From contig PMAT01000105.1 of the NCBI GenBank assembly GCA_003152695.1, forward strand, positions 1 to 56,442: a DNA stretch of 56,442 nt, written 5' to 3'. This document shows, piece after piece, positions 46,876 to 53,772 of this stretch. How positions within the stretch are numbered: the stretch's first letter is position 1; every line of letters begins with the position of its first letter. The notes beneath the pieces are model-generated. The model was not told where the DNA came from, did not search any database, and saw only the letters and a list, made by a program, of their open reading frames with translations. Origin of the DNA: Acidobacteriaceae bacterium. Lineage in GTDB: Bacteria > Acidobacteriota > Terriglobia > Terriglobales > Acidobacteriaceae. A program made the translations under genes and the position numbers.

Positions 46876-47382
46876 CTACATCTTCTTCAAATAATCCACG
46901 ATCTCCGGGCTGGTCCACTCCTGCGGGCCGATGAATTTGCGGACGATCTTGCCAGTGCGATCGATCACGAAGGTTTCAGGAAACCCCGTCGTGCCATACA
47001 GGCCGTTGGTTTTCTGCCGGGTGTCGCGGACCGTGAGCAGATCGACGTTGTGGTCGCGGACGAACTGTTTGTACGCGCTGTCGTCCTCGTCCTCGCTGAC
47101 GGCGATGATGGTCACCTTGTCGCCAAGCTGCTTTTGCAATTGCACCAGCGAGGGCATTTCCTCAATGCACGGCGGGCACCACGTTGCCCAGAAATTGAGC
47201 ACCACGGGCTTGCCATGAAATTGGTCTAGCGCGACTGTGCGCTGGGAATCGGTGATGGTGAACTCTGGGGCGGCGCTGCCGATGCGCGGCGGATGTGCGC
47301 CGCTATTGCACGCCGCGAGCAATACCAGGCAGACGAGAACGGATGAGGAGATGAAGCGCTTCACAGACCTATAATAATTCAT
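46876..47382 (-). CDS. TlpA-like thioredoxin lipoprotein, 168 aa
   Basis: Lipoprotein signal peptide with lipobox LLAAC at about residue 24. The AhpC/TSA-thioredoxin fold has 'IGSAAPEFTITDSQR', VVLNFWATWCPPCIEEMPSL with the redox WCPPC, and a cis-Pro loop in TTGFPETFVIDRTGKIV. This TlpA or ResA type reduces or shuffles disulfides in periplasmic proteins such as cytochrome c. No ccm gene is adjacent. Confidence 0.9.
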   Translation of the reverse strand: MNYYRSVKRFISSSVLVCLVLLAACNSGAHPPRIGSAAPEFTITDSQRTVALDQFHGKPVVLNFWATWCPPCIEEMPSLVQLQKQLGDKVTIIAVSEDEDDSAYKQFVRDHNVDLLTVRDTRQKTNGLYGTTGFPETFVIDRTGKIVRKFIGPQEWTSPEIVDYLKKM

Positions 47383-47448
47383 GGCGGCAGCGATGGTCGC
47401 GGCCAGGATTTTCGAGTGCTCACTGCCGTCTGGTACTCTTTAATCTTC

Positions 47449-48516
47449 ATGGAACAAGGCGAAACCGCTCCCGAGATCTCGGTCATCGTTCCGGCGCGAA
47501 ACGAAGAAGCCTGCCTGGCCGAATGCTTGCGGTCGCTGGTTGACCAGGCGGGGTCTGCCTACGAGGTCATCGTGGTCGACGACCACTCGACCGACGGCAC
47601 GCGCGCCATCGCCGAAAGCTTTCCGGTGAATCTGGTCAGCGCGGGTGAATTGCTGCCTGGTTGGATCGGCAAATGCAACGCGGCCTGGAGCGGCGCCAAA
47701 GCGGCGAAAGGGAAGTGGCTGCTGTTTACCGATGCGGATACCCGGCACGCGCCGGACTCCATCGCGCGCGGCTTGCAGGAAGCGAAAGAGAACAGCGCGG
47801 ACATGCTCTCCTATTCACCCAAGCAGGAAGTGCGCGGATTCGCGGAACGTGCGCTGATGCCCGTCATCTTTGCCGAACTGGCGACGACCTATCCGCCCAA
47901 GGAAGTGTGCGATCCCAAGTCGCCGGTGGCCGCTGCCAACGGACAGTACTTGCTCATGCGGCGGGAAGCTTACGACGCGGTGGGTGGCCACGCCGCGGTT
48001 GCGACTACGCCGTTGGAGGATGTGGAGCTGGCAAAACGGCTGAAGCAGGCGGGATTTGCTCTGCGTTTTGGCATGTCCGACGCAGTCAGCACCCGAATGT
48101 ATCGCAGCTTTCCCCAGATGTGGGAAGGCTGGACCAAGAACCTGGCGCTGCTGTTTCCCAAGCCGCGAAGGCTGGCCTTATGGCGGGCGCTGGAGTTTGT
48201 CGCCATCTTGGCCATGCTGACGTTTGCGATTGTCTCGTTGACCAAGGGCGACATGATCACCTTCCTTGTCGCGGCGGCGGTGACCCTGCAGTGGCTTTAT
48301 CTCTTCGGGAGGCGCATTGCGCGCGCCCATTTTGACGGGCTGTCCAATACGCTGGCGTTCTTCGGATTGCCGCTTTTCGCGGTTCTTTTGGTCAACTCAA
48401 GCATCTCTCATGAGAAGGGAACAGTTCGCTGGAAGGGACGCGAGTATTCGGGTTTGCGAAATGTTCAACCAGCGGACGAAGCGCCGGTCGCCGCTGGAAA
48501 CACGTCGGCGCACTAA
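47449..48516 (+). CDS. family 2 glycosyltransferase with C-terminal TM helices, 355 aa
   Basis: ATG 47449 begins MEQGETAPEISVIVPARNEE; GTG 47416 is a possible longer start. The GT-A core has VIVVDDHSTDGTRAIA, FTDADTRHAPDS (metal-binding DxD) and EDVELAKRLKQ. Three or four TM helices close the protein ('LEFVAILAMLTFAIVSL', 'FFGLPLFAVLLVN'). It resembles HpnB-type hopanoid-associated or membrane GT2 enzymes. It ends 43 bases before the first PTPS gene on the same strand, so it could be part of the pterin operon, although that is only inferred. Confidence 0.82.
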   Translation: MEQGETAPEISVIVPARNEEACLAECLRSLVDQAGSAYEVIVVDDHSTDGTRAIAESFPVNLVSAGELLPGWIGKCNAAWSGAKAAKGKWLLFTDADTRHAPDSIARGLQEAKENSADMLSYSPKQEVRGFAERALMPVIFAELATTYPPKEVCDPKSPVAAANGQYLLMRREAYDAVGGHAAVATTPLEDVELAKRLKQAGFALRFGMSDAVSTRMYRSFPQMWEGWTKNLALLFPKPRRLALWRALEFVAILAMLTFAIVSLTKGDMITFLVAAAVTLQWLYLFGRRIARAHFDGLSNTLAFFGLPLFAVLLVNSSISHEKGTVRWKGREYSGLRNVQPADEAPVAAGNTSAH

Positions 48517-48559: not shown

Positions 48560-48970
48560 ATGGTCTATCTAACCCGCAAGTGTGAGTTTTCCGCGTCGCA
48601 CTATTATCACAACCCCGAGTTCTCGACGGAAGAAAACCAGCGCATCTTCGGCAAGTGTGCCAACTTGAATGGCCACGGACACAACTACACCCTCGAGGTG
48701 ACGGTGAAGGGCGATGTCGACCCTAAGACGGGTTTTGTAGTGGACTTGAAGGAGCTTAAGGAAATCTTGAACCGCGAAGTCCTCGACGCGCTTGATCATC
48801 GCCATCTGAATAAGGAAGTGCCGGAGTTCCTGCGACAAATTCCTACGACGGAGAATCTTGCCATCGCCATCTGGAATCGCTTGCAAGGCAAGTTGCATGT
48901 GGCAAAGCTGCATCGCGTGCGGGTGTACGAGTTGCCCGACCTCTTCGTCGATTTCTACGGAGAAGCATGA
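48560..48970 (+). CDS. 6-pyruvoyl-tetrahydropterin synthase, paralog 1, 136 aa
   Basis: AGGAAAAC precedes ATG 48560. All PTPS key residues are present: zinc His14, His39 and His41 (FSASHYY; NGHGHNY), catalytic Cys33 in FGKCANLNGHGH, the Asp79-His80 pair in LDHRHL, TTEN, and pterin-binding Glu in VYELPD. The C-x5-HGH spacing matches animal PTPS (CNNPNGHGH), not bacterial QueD (C-x3-HGH). It converts 7,8-dihydroneopterin triphosphate to 6-pyruvoyl-tetrahydropterin. It overlaps paralog 2 by ATGA. The substrate assignment follows the family and is unproven here. Confidence 0.88.
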   Translation: MVYLTRKCEFSASHYYHNPEFSTEENQRIFGKCANLNGHGHNYTLEVTVKGDVDPKTGFVVDLKELKEILNREVLDALDHRHLNKEVPEFLRQIPTTENLAIAIWNRLQGKLHVAKLHRVRVYELPDLFVDFYGEA

Positions 48971-49389
48971 AGGCCCATCTGACGCGGCGCTATCTGTTTT
49001 CGGCGTCCCACCGGTTGCACTGCGATGGGCTCTCCGAGTCGGAGAACCAGGCGACTTACGGCAAGTGTAATAATCCGCACGGCCACGGGCACAACTACGC
49101 ACTGGAGGTCACGGTGAGCGGACAAGTCAATCCGCAGACCGGAATGGTATGCAACCTGGTTGATTTGGACGGCGCAGTGCATCGTGAAGTGTTGGAACGC
49201 TTCGATCACGTGAACTTGAATGCGCGTCGAGAATTCGCGGCGACCGTGCCCACCACGGAAAATCTAAGCGAGGTCATCTTCAACATTTTGAAGCAAAGAT
49301 TTACTGCGGCTCATCTTGAGGAGGTACGGCTCGAAGAGACTATGATGAATAGCTTCGAGTACGCAGGCGGAGCGGAATTACGGGTGTAA
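48967..49389 (+). CDS. 6-pyruvoyl-tetrahydropterin synthase, paralog 2, 140 aa
   Basis: ATGA overlap with paralog 1. The residues are again complete: His15 in FSASHRL, Cys34 in [14 protein letters not shown], His40 and His42, FDHVNL, TTEN and LEET. It shares about half of its residues with paralog 1 by eye, but the middle ([15 protein letters not shown]) and the tail differ, so it is an old duplication. It ends 15 bases before folE. The presence of two intact PTPS genes in tandem is uncommon; one may act on a related pterin or form a hetero-oligomer. Confidence 0.88.
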
Positions 49390-49403
49390 GCCTGGAGAGA
49401 CTG

Positions 49404-50003
49404 ATGAGAGACCTGACGGAAACGCCGACCCTGACCAGTGCCAGCTTCGAAGAACTGGCGCGCGAGATGCTGGTTCGCCTGGGCGAACAGCCTGATCGCG
49501 AGGGCCTGTTGAAGACGCCGGAGCGCTACGCCAACGCTTTGCAGTACCTGACCAAGGGCTACGGCGAAGACCCGGAACAAATGCTGAAGGCAGCGCTGTT
49601 CAGCGTGGACTACGATGAGATGGTGATCGTGAAGGACATCGAAATGTTCAGCCTTTGCGAGCACCATGTGCTGCCATTCTTCGGCAAGGTGCACGTGGCT
49701 TACATTCCCAAGGGCAAAGTGATCGGCCTGAGCAAGGTCCCGCGGTTGGTGGAAGTGTTTGCCCGTCGTCTCCAGGTGCAGGAGCGTCTGACCGTGCAAA
49801 TTGCGGAGACAATTCAAAAGGCGATTCAACCCTTGGGCGTCGGAGTGGTCATCGAGGCACGCCACCTGTGCATGATGATGCGCGGGGTCGAGAAGCAACA
49901 TTCGGCCACGGTGACGTCGTCCATGCTTGGCGCCTTCCGCGCACAACAGACCCGCCAGGAATTTTTGTCCCTGATCCACGCCAAGAACGGCAGCGGAATC
50001 TAA
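49404..50003 (+). CDS. folE: GTP cyclohydrolase I, 199 aa
   Basis: ATG 49404 with GGAGAG upstream. The core has [34 protein letters not shown] (zinc Cys-His), [19 protein letters not shown] (split), and HLCMMMRGV with the second Cys. It forms 7,8-dihydroneopterin triphosphate from GTP, the substrate of the two upstream PTPS genes. Full length (about 190-220). It starts 15 bases after paralog 2 and ends 3 bases before the SDR gene, so all four are one operon. Confidence 0.95.
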
Positions 50004-50006
50004 TCC

Positions 50007-50822
50007 ATGACTGCGAAGAAGCCGCAGTCTCACCGCAAAACAGGAATCAACACCCAGGAATCGCGCTCTGGTAAACCTCGCTTATTGGGCAAGGTCGCGG
50101 TCGTGACTGGCGCCAGCCGCGGCATCGGCTTCGCCATTGCCCGCACCTTTGCCGCCGAAGGTTGCAGCGTCGTCATCACGGGTCGCGATGCTGCAACGCT
50201 CGCCAAGAGCGCCGCGGAACTCAGGCGGTTGCTTCCGAAACAAACATCTGCGCATGACAAGGGTGGCGCTCAGATCGTCGCCGAGGTTTGCGACGTGCGC
50301 GATCCAGATTCCGTCGCGTTGCTTTTCGCGATGGTGAAGCAGCGCTTCGGCAGGCTCGACCTGCTGGTGAACAATGCAGGGATTGCTCAACCGGCAGTTT
50401 CCATCGAACAAACCAGCCTCGAAGTATGGCGCGCTGCGATCGATACCAACCTCACAGGCTTGTTTCTCTGCACACGCGCGGCGCTGCCTCTCATGCAGGC
50501 GGGCGCGATCATCATCAACAACCTCTCGGTTGCGGCCAGGACCGTGTTTCCAAATTTCGCCGCCTACAACGCCTCCAAGCATGGCGCACTGGGCTTCACC
50601 TTGTCGCTGCGCGATGAACTCATCCCTCGCGGCATTCGCGTGGTTGCGCTTATGCCCGGCGCAACCGACACCGATTTGTGGCAGCAATTCTGGCCCGACG
50701 CTCCGCGCGAACGCATGGTTGACGTGGAGAGCGTCGCCCAAGCCGTGCTCTACGCCGTGCTTCTGCCGCCGAATGCAAATCTGTCCGAGCTTGTGCTAGC
50801 GCCGAGCGGCGGAGCGCTGTAG
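50007..50822 (+). CDS. SDR oxidoreductase, sepiapterin-reductase candidate, 271 aa
   Basis: Rossmann motif VVTGASRGIGFAIA, NNAGIAQ, and the YxxxK pair in YNASKHGALGF mark a classical short-chain dehydrogenase, probably NADPH dependent (Arg after the glycine motif, TGRDAA). It follows folE by three bases. Its place behind folE and two PTPS genes makes a sepiapterin-reductase-like step (6-pyruvoyl-tetrahydropterin to BH4) a reasonable guess. Bacterial SDRs are too similar to fix the substrate from sequence. The N-terminus (first 25 residues) is Lys/Gln/Arg-rich and may be non-conserved. Confidence 0.8.
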   Translation: MTAKKPQSHRKTGINTQESRSGKPRLLGKVAVVTGASRGIGFAIARTFAAEGCSVVITGRDAATLAKSAAELRRLLPKQTSAHDKGGAQIVAEVCDVRDPDSVALLFAMVKQRFGRLDLLVNNAGIAQPAVSIEQTSLEVWRAAIDTNLTGLFLCTRAALPLMQAGAIIINNLSVAARTVFPNFAAYNASKHGALGFTLSLRDELIPRGIRVVALMPGATDTDLWQQFWPDAPRERMVDVESVAQAVLYAVLLPPNANLSELVLAPSGGAL

Positions 50823-52637: not shown

Positions 52638-52973
52638 GTGGCCGCTGACGAAACCCCTGTTTTGCAGTTGGAGATCGAAAGACAACCCGATGCGAACATC
52701 GTGCACTGCACGGGCAAGGTGGTGATTGACTCCTGGGCCATGTTCACCGTGGCGGTCCGCGCACTCATTCCTGAGGGCAAGCCGATCCTCGTGGATCTGG
52801 CCAAAGTCACCCTGGTGGATAGTGTCGGCATCGGCACCTTCGTCAGCGTCTGGGCCTCCGCTCGAAAGAGCGGCTGCGAGCTGAAATTCATCAATCTGAA
52901 CGACGACATCCACGACTTGTTCGAGATCACCCGCTTGCACGGCCTGTTTGGCGGCGACGCCCCCGGCGCTTAA
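52638..52973 (+). CDS. STAS-domain anti-sigma-factor antagonist, 111 aa
   Basis: GTG 52638 with GGAGGG upstream. A single STAS domain has 'VHCTGKVVIDSWAMF', 'GKPILVDLAKVTLVDSVGIG' (Ser in the DSVGIG segment is the phospho-acceptor position of SpoIIAA) and 'CELKFINLNDDIHDLFEITR'. It is likely part of a partner-switch with an anti-sigma kinase not seen here. A damaged copy of its 3' two thirds lies at 53553-53772. Confidence 0.88.
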   Translation: MAADETPVLQLEIERQPDANIVHCTGKVVIDSWAMFTVAVRALIPEGKPILVDLAKVTLVDSVGIGTFVSVWASARKSGCELKFINLNDDIHDLFEITRLHGLFGGDAPGA

Positions 52974-53420: not shown

Positions 53421-53552
53421 CACGGTCACCGCTGCACAACGGAGGCGGGCATTCGCGGCGCCGAAGACTGACTCCGGCCTTTTCATTCTATTTTGCGGGT
53501 ATATGTGGGGCCGAGGAGAAAACGCATTCCGCAGAACGAAGGTAATCACACT

Positions 53553-53772
53553 CTCCGTGCGTTCATTCCTGAGGGCAAGCCGATCCTTGTTGACCTGGCC
53601 AACGTGAGCCAGCGGACAGCGTGGGCATCGGCGCCTTCGTCAGCCTCAGGGCCTCAGCCCGAAAGAGCGCTGCGAGCTTGAGTTCATCAATCTGAACGAA
53701 CACACTCACGATCTGTTCGAGATCACCCGCTTGCACGGCCTGTTTGGGTCCGATGTCCCCGGCGCCGACTAA
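53553..53772 (+). pseudogene. broken 3' copy of the STAS gene
   Basis: Bases 53553-53772 match codons of the STAS gene from about 52754 to its stop (52973), for example ATTCCTGAGGGCAAGCCGAT, the ATCAATCTGAACGA region and CTTGCACGGCCTGTTTG. There are two single-base deletions (near 53610-53625 and 53675) that shift the frame. No start remains. Divergence is moderate, so the copy has been decaying since duplication. About 580 bases separate it from the original gene. Confidence 0.88.

Follow-up and report, generated by a model that had tools for sequence, protein, structure and literature searches.

The closest described counterparts of the genes considered here are the 6-pyruvoyl-tetrahydropterin synthase (PTPS) of animals and the PTPS-II of bacteria. 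According to PMC5041015, the motif CxxxxxHGH defines PTPS-II and CExxHGH the PTPS-I/III type, and a PTPS-II accompanied by folE and a reductase fits the synthesis of tetrahydrobiopterin (BH4) as described there. Here, I report on a tandem pair of PTPS-II-type genes, PTPS1 and PTPS2, in a stretch of 56,442 nucleotides from an Acidobacteriaceae bacterium (GenBank assembly GCA_003152695.1, contig PMAT01000105.1), hereafter the window, which is contig C67 of a 4.5 Mb genome in 141 contigs, 99.4% complete. Among the relatives of this pair, one partner may lack the catalytic Cys and the other the catalytic Asp-His, always in the same direction, and it is very probable, judging from the aligned proteins, that the family forms a heteromeric PTPS with composite active sites.

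The catalytic triad of PTPS is reportedly intersubunit, as the title of a 1995 paper by Burgisser has it, and Ploom is said to have reported in 1999 that the Cys and the Asp-His are supplied by different, neighbouring subunits.

One-way losses in the tandem pairs

The two genes and their triad positions, all on the forward strand, are as follows.

48560-48970 (+): PTPS1, PTPS-II type, identified by open reading frame (ORF), Pfam and nearest PDB sequences; the partner that keeps Asp-His in all pairs examined
48656-48658 (+): codon of PTPS1 Cys33 (rat Cys42 position), read from the sequence; present here, gone in 49/149 relatives
48794-48799 (+): PTPS1 Asp79-His80 (rat Asp88-His89 position), from the sequence and a column check
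48967-49389 (+): PTPS2, PTPS-II type, identified by ORF, Pfam and nearest PDB sequences; the partner that keeps Cys in all pairs examined
49066-49068 (+): codon of PTPS2 Cys34, read from the sequence; the column is invariant in the alignment
49204-49209 (+): PTPS2 Asp80-His81, read from the sequence; present here, altered in 64/149 relatives

The comparison covers 149 distinct, full-length tandem pairs of Acidobacteriota, 70 of them from named records and 79 from other genomes, the residues being taken from a profile alignment at the positions of rat His23, Cys42, His48, His50, Asp88, His89, Glu107 and Glu133. Three fragment pairs (L172, L136, L132) were excluded, as were two loci at contig ends with a PTPS2 devoid of Asp-His and no PTPS1 (L099, L117) and one with only a piece of PTPS1 (L152). 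The phylum and class searches were even draws of genomes, with counts given among the matches listed; the best 80 loci of a contig profile scan all fell in Acidobacteria or its members, and statements on distribution are confined to the phylum.

PTPS1 retains Asp-His in 149/149 pairs and Cys in 100, the replacements being Ala (24), Glu (8), Ser (7), Gly (4), Asp (3) and Asn (3); PTPS2 retains Cys in 149/149 and Asp-His in 85. Reverse losses, i.e. of Asp-His from PTPS1 or of Cys from PTPS2, were found in none of the 149 pairs. Both chains are complete in 62 pairs, only PTPS2 lacks Asp-His in 38, only PTPS1 lacks Cys in 23, and both are split in 26, which have a full triad in neither chain, so that neither homomer would contain one. 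The remaining positions are nearly invariant: His48, His50 and Glu107 are conserved in both chains of all pairs, His23 in 148 and 149 of them, and Glu133 in 148 and 148. Triad, zinc ligands and pterin Glu are all complete in both chains of the window, and incomplete in at least one chain in 87/149 relatives. Collapsing the set at 95% identity in both chains leaves 148 pairs and the pattern unchanged. On quick trees, rough for such short proteins with few columns, the loss of Asp-His from PTPS2 takes at least 28 changes and the loss of Cys from PTPS1 takes 2.

The losses come close to the window's own pair. A PTPS2 at least 65% identical to its PTPS2 occurs in 54 pairs, 27 of which lack the PTPS2 Asp-His; in three of these relatives (L104, L101, L111) the identity is 74%, and it is from them that a heteromeric role of the window's pair, with both triads intact, is inferred. 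This pair could form sites in both orientations.

The same polarity recurs outside the class, where two genomes encode two PTPS domains in a single ORF adjoining folE. In one fusion (L246) Cys has become Lys in the first domain, whose Asp-His is intact, and the second domain has an intact Cys but reads Asp-Cys instead of Asp-His; in the other (L275) the first domain carries Arg at the Cys position beside an intact Asp-His, and the second pairs an intact Cys with Gln-Gly. Two further genomes (G189, G228) hold two unlinked copies that are complementary as well, one with Cys and Asp-Arg and the other with Ala and Asp-His (L262-L265), the second additionally lacking one zinc His and the late Glu. 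Solitary PTPS-II genes in other classes, with no second PTPS adjacent, are complete in nine of nine cases (L253-L256, L258, L259, L276-L278), the remaining PTPS matches of those nine genomes, mostly judged by length, appearing QueD-like; among QueD-like rows the full signature is present in 78/86.

With an intersubunit triad, one-way complementary losses point to a hetero-oligomer whose composite site would combine the Cys of PTPS2 with the Asp-His of PTPS1. In the proposed mechanism, FolE would convert GTP into dihydroneopterin triphosphate; PTPS1 and PTPS2, as subunits of one hetero-oligomeric PTPS, would turn it into 6-pyruvoyl-tetrahydropterin at composite sites, the zinc site and Cys being provided by PTPS2 and the Cys-activating Asp-His by PTPS1 across the subunit interface; and a short-chain dehydrogenase/reductase (SDR), or another reductase, would yield a tetrahydrobiopterin-type pterin. 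The physical complex, its activity and its product are predictions. Taken as a whole, a heteromeric PTPS with a BH4-type product is likely for this operon, if less so than the composite site is for the family. The earlier note had suggested a hetero-oligomer, or else a second pterin product, from the two copies in tandem; the complementary losses strongly support a hetero-oligomer for the family, and the window's pair would follow by extension from its relatives. In the open-licence literature searched, of partial coverage, nothing on heteromeric or split-site PTPS stood among the matches listed.

Several observations weigh against this reading. The 62 pairs that retain both triads include the window's, and in the 38 pairs with a complete PTPS1 and a PTPS2 without Asp-His a homomer of PTPS1 could work alone. 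All 49 Cys-less PTPS1 come from just two families, f5 and f2, and two changes on the tree. In family f26, four tandem pairs (L247-L250) retain the triad in each chain, hence pairing does not force a split; the second PTPS copy of L251 lacks both Cys and Asp-His (YHY) and retains its zinc His; and in L152 (4876-5402, +) a complete PTPS2 stands beside a PTPS1 matched only in its C-terminal part, possibly a broken or misassembled gene. As regards the product, the SDR is generic by sequence and often absent downstream of the pair, and a search of the window genome (G000) found no phenylalanine hydroxylase (PF00351), other users not having been searched for. The locus of L251 (3171-5277, +) has the order PTPS, glycosyltransferase, PTPS.

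A broader version of the heteromeric reading is tentative and rather unlikely: that the heteromer is obligate throughout the phylum, duplication having split one intersubunit site while the vacated second zinc site was kept for another step. Such a vacated site, with no Cys in PTPS1 and no Asp-His in PTPS2, would exist only in some lineages, and its step could be PTPS-III-like, for instance, where the PTPS1 Cys has become Glu or Asp, so that one ring would host two chemistries.

Class assignment of the two paralogs

PTPS1 and PTPS2 each carry Cx5HGH, three zinc His, Asp-His, TTEN and a late Glu, as seen in the sequence and by column check, and both contain the PTPS-II motif CxxxxxHGH (KCANLNGHGH in PTPS1). 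The QueD motif CxxxHGH is found in neither, the Cys lying six residues before HGH, nor is the motif of PTPS-III and FolB bypass, ExxHGH or CExxHGH. By sequence, their closest solved structures are the rat, human and C. elegans PTPS (E 1.5e-38 to 3.9e-27), QueD structures being weaker matches (best E 2.2e-10 and 2.5e-6 for the two proteins). Both score below the curated thresholds of the NCBIfam models TIGR00039 and TIGR03367; hence no NCBI equivalog name applies.

A PTPS/QueD tree was built from 152 rows after masking the three triad columns. In it, PTPS1, PTPS2, the lone PTPS-II of other classes and animal PTPS stand together, apart from the QueD type of the window genome (support 97). PTPS2 forms a single group (support 84); another (support 99) joins PTPS1 to one half of a fusion and to the first copies from family f26. 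QueD makes no clean clade, two rows of E. coli-like QueD (L222, L280) lying on long branches among those of PTPS-II. The earlier note had held the paralogs to be animal-like rather than QueD; motif and tree bear this out, those two QueD rows notwithstanding, and the outcome it had named as refuting, both paralogs inside QueD, did not occur, for they group with animal PTPS. The separate queD that it expected elsewhere in the genome exists too: the window genome has three PTPS genes, the third of which (L001) lies on contig C117 beside queE.

Alternative explanations

PTPS1 and PTPS2 might instead form two independent homo-oligomers, one a normal PTPS and the other drifting towards different chemistry with the shared substrate, both being co-transcribed with folE. 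The intact triads of both chains in 62/149 pairs and the complete PTPS1 in 100/149 would suit this explanation, as would an old duplication, the PTPS1 and PTPS2 groups being separate in the tree. Yet 26 pairs of family f5 would be devoid of a triad as homomers and have nonetheless retained zinc ligands, both Glu and the operon; together with the one-way direction of the losses and the identical split in two fusions, this makes independent homomers distinctly unlikely.

Still less probable is that the tandem pair substitutes for a missing FolB, giving 6-hydroxymethyl-dihydropterin for folate. FolB was not found in the window genome and HPPK was, and over the class FolB scores above cut-off in 3/66 genomes with at least three PTPS genes vs 22/35 with fewer. 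However, another enzyme is the better candidate for a folate bypass, namely the separate QueD, which in the window genome (L001, 1498-1890, -) reads KCEKPHGH, i.e. the CExxHGH of PTPS-I/III, and is likely, from this motif, a dual queuosine and folate enzyme. A Glu after the QueD Cys position occurs in 0/11 loci with FolB vs 45/49 without (60 loci; Fisher p 4e-9, kinship uncorrected), or 45/48 FolB-less genomes vs 0/11 with FolB. In this comparison, G083 is counted twice, G081 and G112 (weak FolB matches below cut-off) are scored as FolB-less, and the QueD of G029 is excluded; the loci are a non-random sample of best-scoring and chosen f5 genomes. Moreover, four genomes with FolB (G080, G089, G110, G113) also carry the PTPS pair, and Cys is retained in both PTPS of the window.

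On the distribution of FolB against the QueD motif, replacement of FolB by the pair was thus rated unlikely, with three exceptions. In these FolB-less genomes (G057, G063, G109) the QueD is without the Glu and the PTPS1 Cys position is occupied by Asp, Glu and Glu, respectively, a kind of residue seen in all three vs 8/46 of the other Cys-less PTPS1 (p 0.009, post hoc); there (L071, L073, L187) the folate step may have passed to the vacated half-site of PTPS1. Three QueD of family f5 (L227, L228, L229) have Thr, Thr and Ser in place of Cys and keep Glu and Asp-His (GKTEPIHGH, GATEPVHGH, GKSEDVHGH); they are perhaps folate-only enzymes.

That the f5 pair is merely decaying, its function lost, is hardly credible, for in spite of the many altered triad residues, open frames, zinc ligands, Glu residues and operon are maintained across many f5 genera, and decay would not leave Cys in all PTPS2 and Asp-His in all PTPS1.

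The operon and its predicted product

PTPS1 and PTPS2 are accompanied by three further genes on the same strand.

47416-48516 (+): family 2 glycosyltransferase (GT2), HpnB-like, from ORF and domain search; head of the likely operon
49404-50003 (+): folE, GTP cyclohydrolase I, from ORF and Pfam; the sole copy detected in the genome
50007-50822 (+): SDR oxidoreductase, candidate 6-pyruvoyl-tetrahydropterin reductase of generic sequence, from ORF, Pfam and PDB matches

The stop of PTPS1 and the start of PTPS2 overlap by four bases (ATGA), 14 bases separate PTPS2 from folE and 3 bases folE from the SDR gene, and PTPS1 begins 43 bases after the end of the GT2 gene. Pfam scores are 129.6 and 109.2 bits for PTPS in PTPS1 and PTPS2, 250 bits for GTP_cyclohydroI and 180.5 bits for adh_short. 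The four-gene operon proposed in the earlier note (PTPS1-PTPS2-folE-SDR) is thereby confirmed in strand, spacing and domains, its content being incomplete in that the GT2 gene upstream had been overlooked. Over the tandem loci a median of 2 bases separates the PTPS1 stop from the PTPS2 domain, the neighbours overlapping or almost abutting. Where the contig leaves room, folE lies downstream of the pair, in the same orientation, in 144/144 loci, so the PTPS-folE arrangement is not due to chance, and PTPS1-PTPS2-folE is the invariant core of the operon across tandem loci. Its periphery varies, with a GT2 homologue upstream in 72/137 loci with room and an SDR downstream in only 49/131. For the GT2 at the head of the operon, pterin glycoside formation or an unrelated role is possible.

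PTPS was detected in 96/101 genomes of the class, with at least three genes in 66 (a count from the search table), and folE in 98/101. As no folE other than that of the operon was found in the window genome, FolE must also feed folate and queuosine.

A tetrahydrobiopterin-type product of the operon is likely, given its gene content. The final reductase, for which the earlier note had put forward the SDR, is less clear: the SDR is not among the matches of its own genome to TIGR01500 (sepiapterin reductase) at E 1e-10, and none lies downstream in 82/131 loci with room. Four other SDRs of the window genome are listed for TIGR01500, all far under the cut-off, which no control genome reached either, so that bacterial sepiapterin reductases may escape this model. 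The SDR was rejected as a proven sepiapterin reductase; its PDB matches, among the best 60 listed, are many generic SDRs.

The phenylalanine hydroxylase that the earlier note proposed to look for was not returned by the PF00351 search of the window genome. Over the class, PF00351 occurs in 18/101 genomes, namely 17/66 with at least three PTPS genes vs 1/35 of the others (Fisher p 0.005, kinship uncorrected); at 17/66, phenylalanine hydroxylase was ruled out as a general user of BH4. Pterin-4a-carbinolamine dehydratase, considered as a pointer to a hydroxylase, is present in 98/101 class genomes and hence uninformative. An entire group of abundant soil bacteria, in whose sampled genomes phenylalanine hydroxylase is mostly missing, would invest in a predicted BH4-type pathway.

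Elsewhere in the window, a TlpA/ResA-like thioredoxin gene (46876-47382, -) is divergent from the operon, and its homology cluster recurs in 27/35 tandem loci compared. A short ORF (53493-53681, +; LRAFIPEGKPILVDLANVS...) partly resembles, by eye, a small gene at 52638-52973 (+; VRALIPEGKPILVDLAKVT...), and is apparently a degraded duplicate.

Comparison with known systems

An AlphaFold model of the fused protein L246 reached a predicted local distance difference test score (pLDDT) of 86.3 and a predicted template modelling score (pTM) of 0.70, two of the five models standing at 69. Its alignment has 42 rows; among every second one of these, the single-domain rows cover the second half only, so that the first half of the model rests on very few sequences. 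The best fold match is rat PTPS 1gtq to the second half (Z 18.4, root mean square deviation (rmsd) 1.6, 135 residues aligned); over the full length two structures match the model, 7cuc, a urate oxidase (Z 12.4, rmsd 3.5, 214 residues aligned), and 3d2o, a GTP cyclohydrolase IB (Z 11.2, rmsd 4.2, 195 residues aligned). The model hints that the fused PTPS domains sit side by side in one barrel, its first half being thinly aligned. Urate oxidase and GTP cyclohydrolase IB are likewise two-domain T-folds, but their chemistry is other and their identity to the fused PTPS 6 to 11%, a likeness of arrangement only.

With QueD/PTPS-I and PTPS-I/III, the window's PTPS share the COG0720 family and the T-fold; the motif of those enzymes is Cx3HGH or CExxHGH (PMC5041015), against Cx5HGH in the pair. 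For Synechococcus, the same paper describes a PTPS-II with PTPS activity plus a separate PTPS-I, as here with QueD, the difference being that a single PTPS-II is described there and a tandem pair stands beside QueD here.

Nearest of all is animal PTPS (rat 1b66/1gtq, human 3i2b, C. elegans 2g64), which has Cx5HGH, the three zinc His, Asp-His, TTEN and the late Glu in common with both paralogs. It is a hexamer of identical subunits, as PMC10767420 states, whereas the present system has two paralogs, with triads split one way in the relatives. Along the same line, PTPS is usually regarded as a homohexamer, and in these bacteria evolution has apparently repeated a subunit-mixing experiment many times, each T-fold duplicate seemingly shedding the half of the triad that its partner provides while the enzyme stays working. 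A lone PTPS gene may, as a rule for annotation, be inactive. The split pairs would put the intersubunit triad directly to the test and offer a natural case of a homomer turning into an obligate heteromer.

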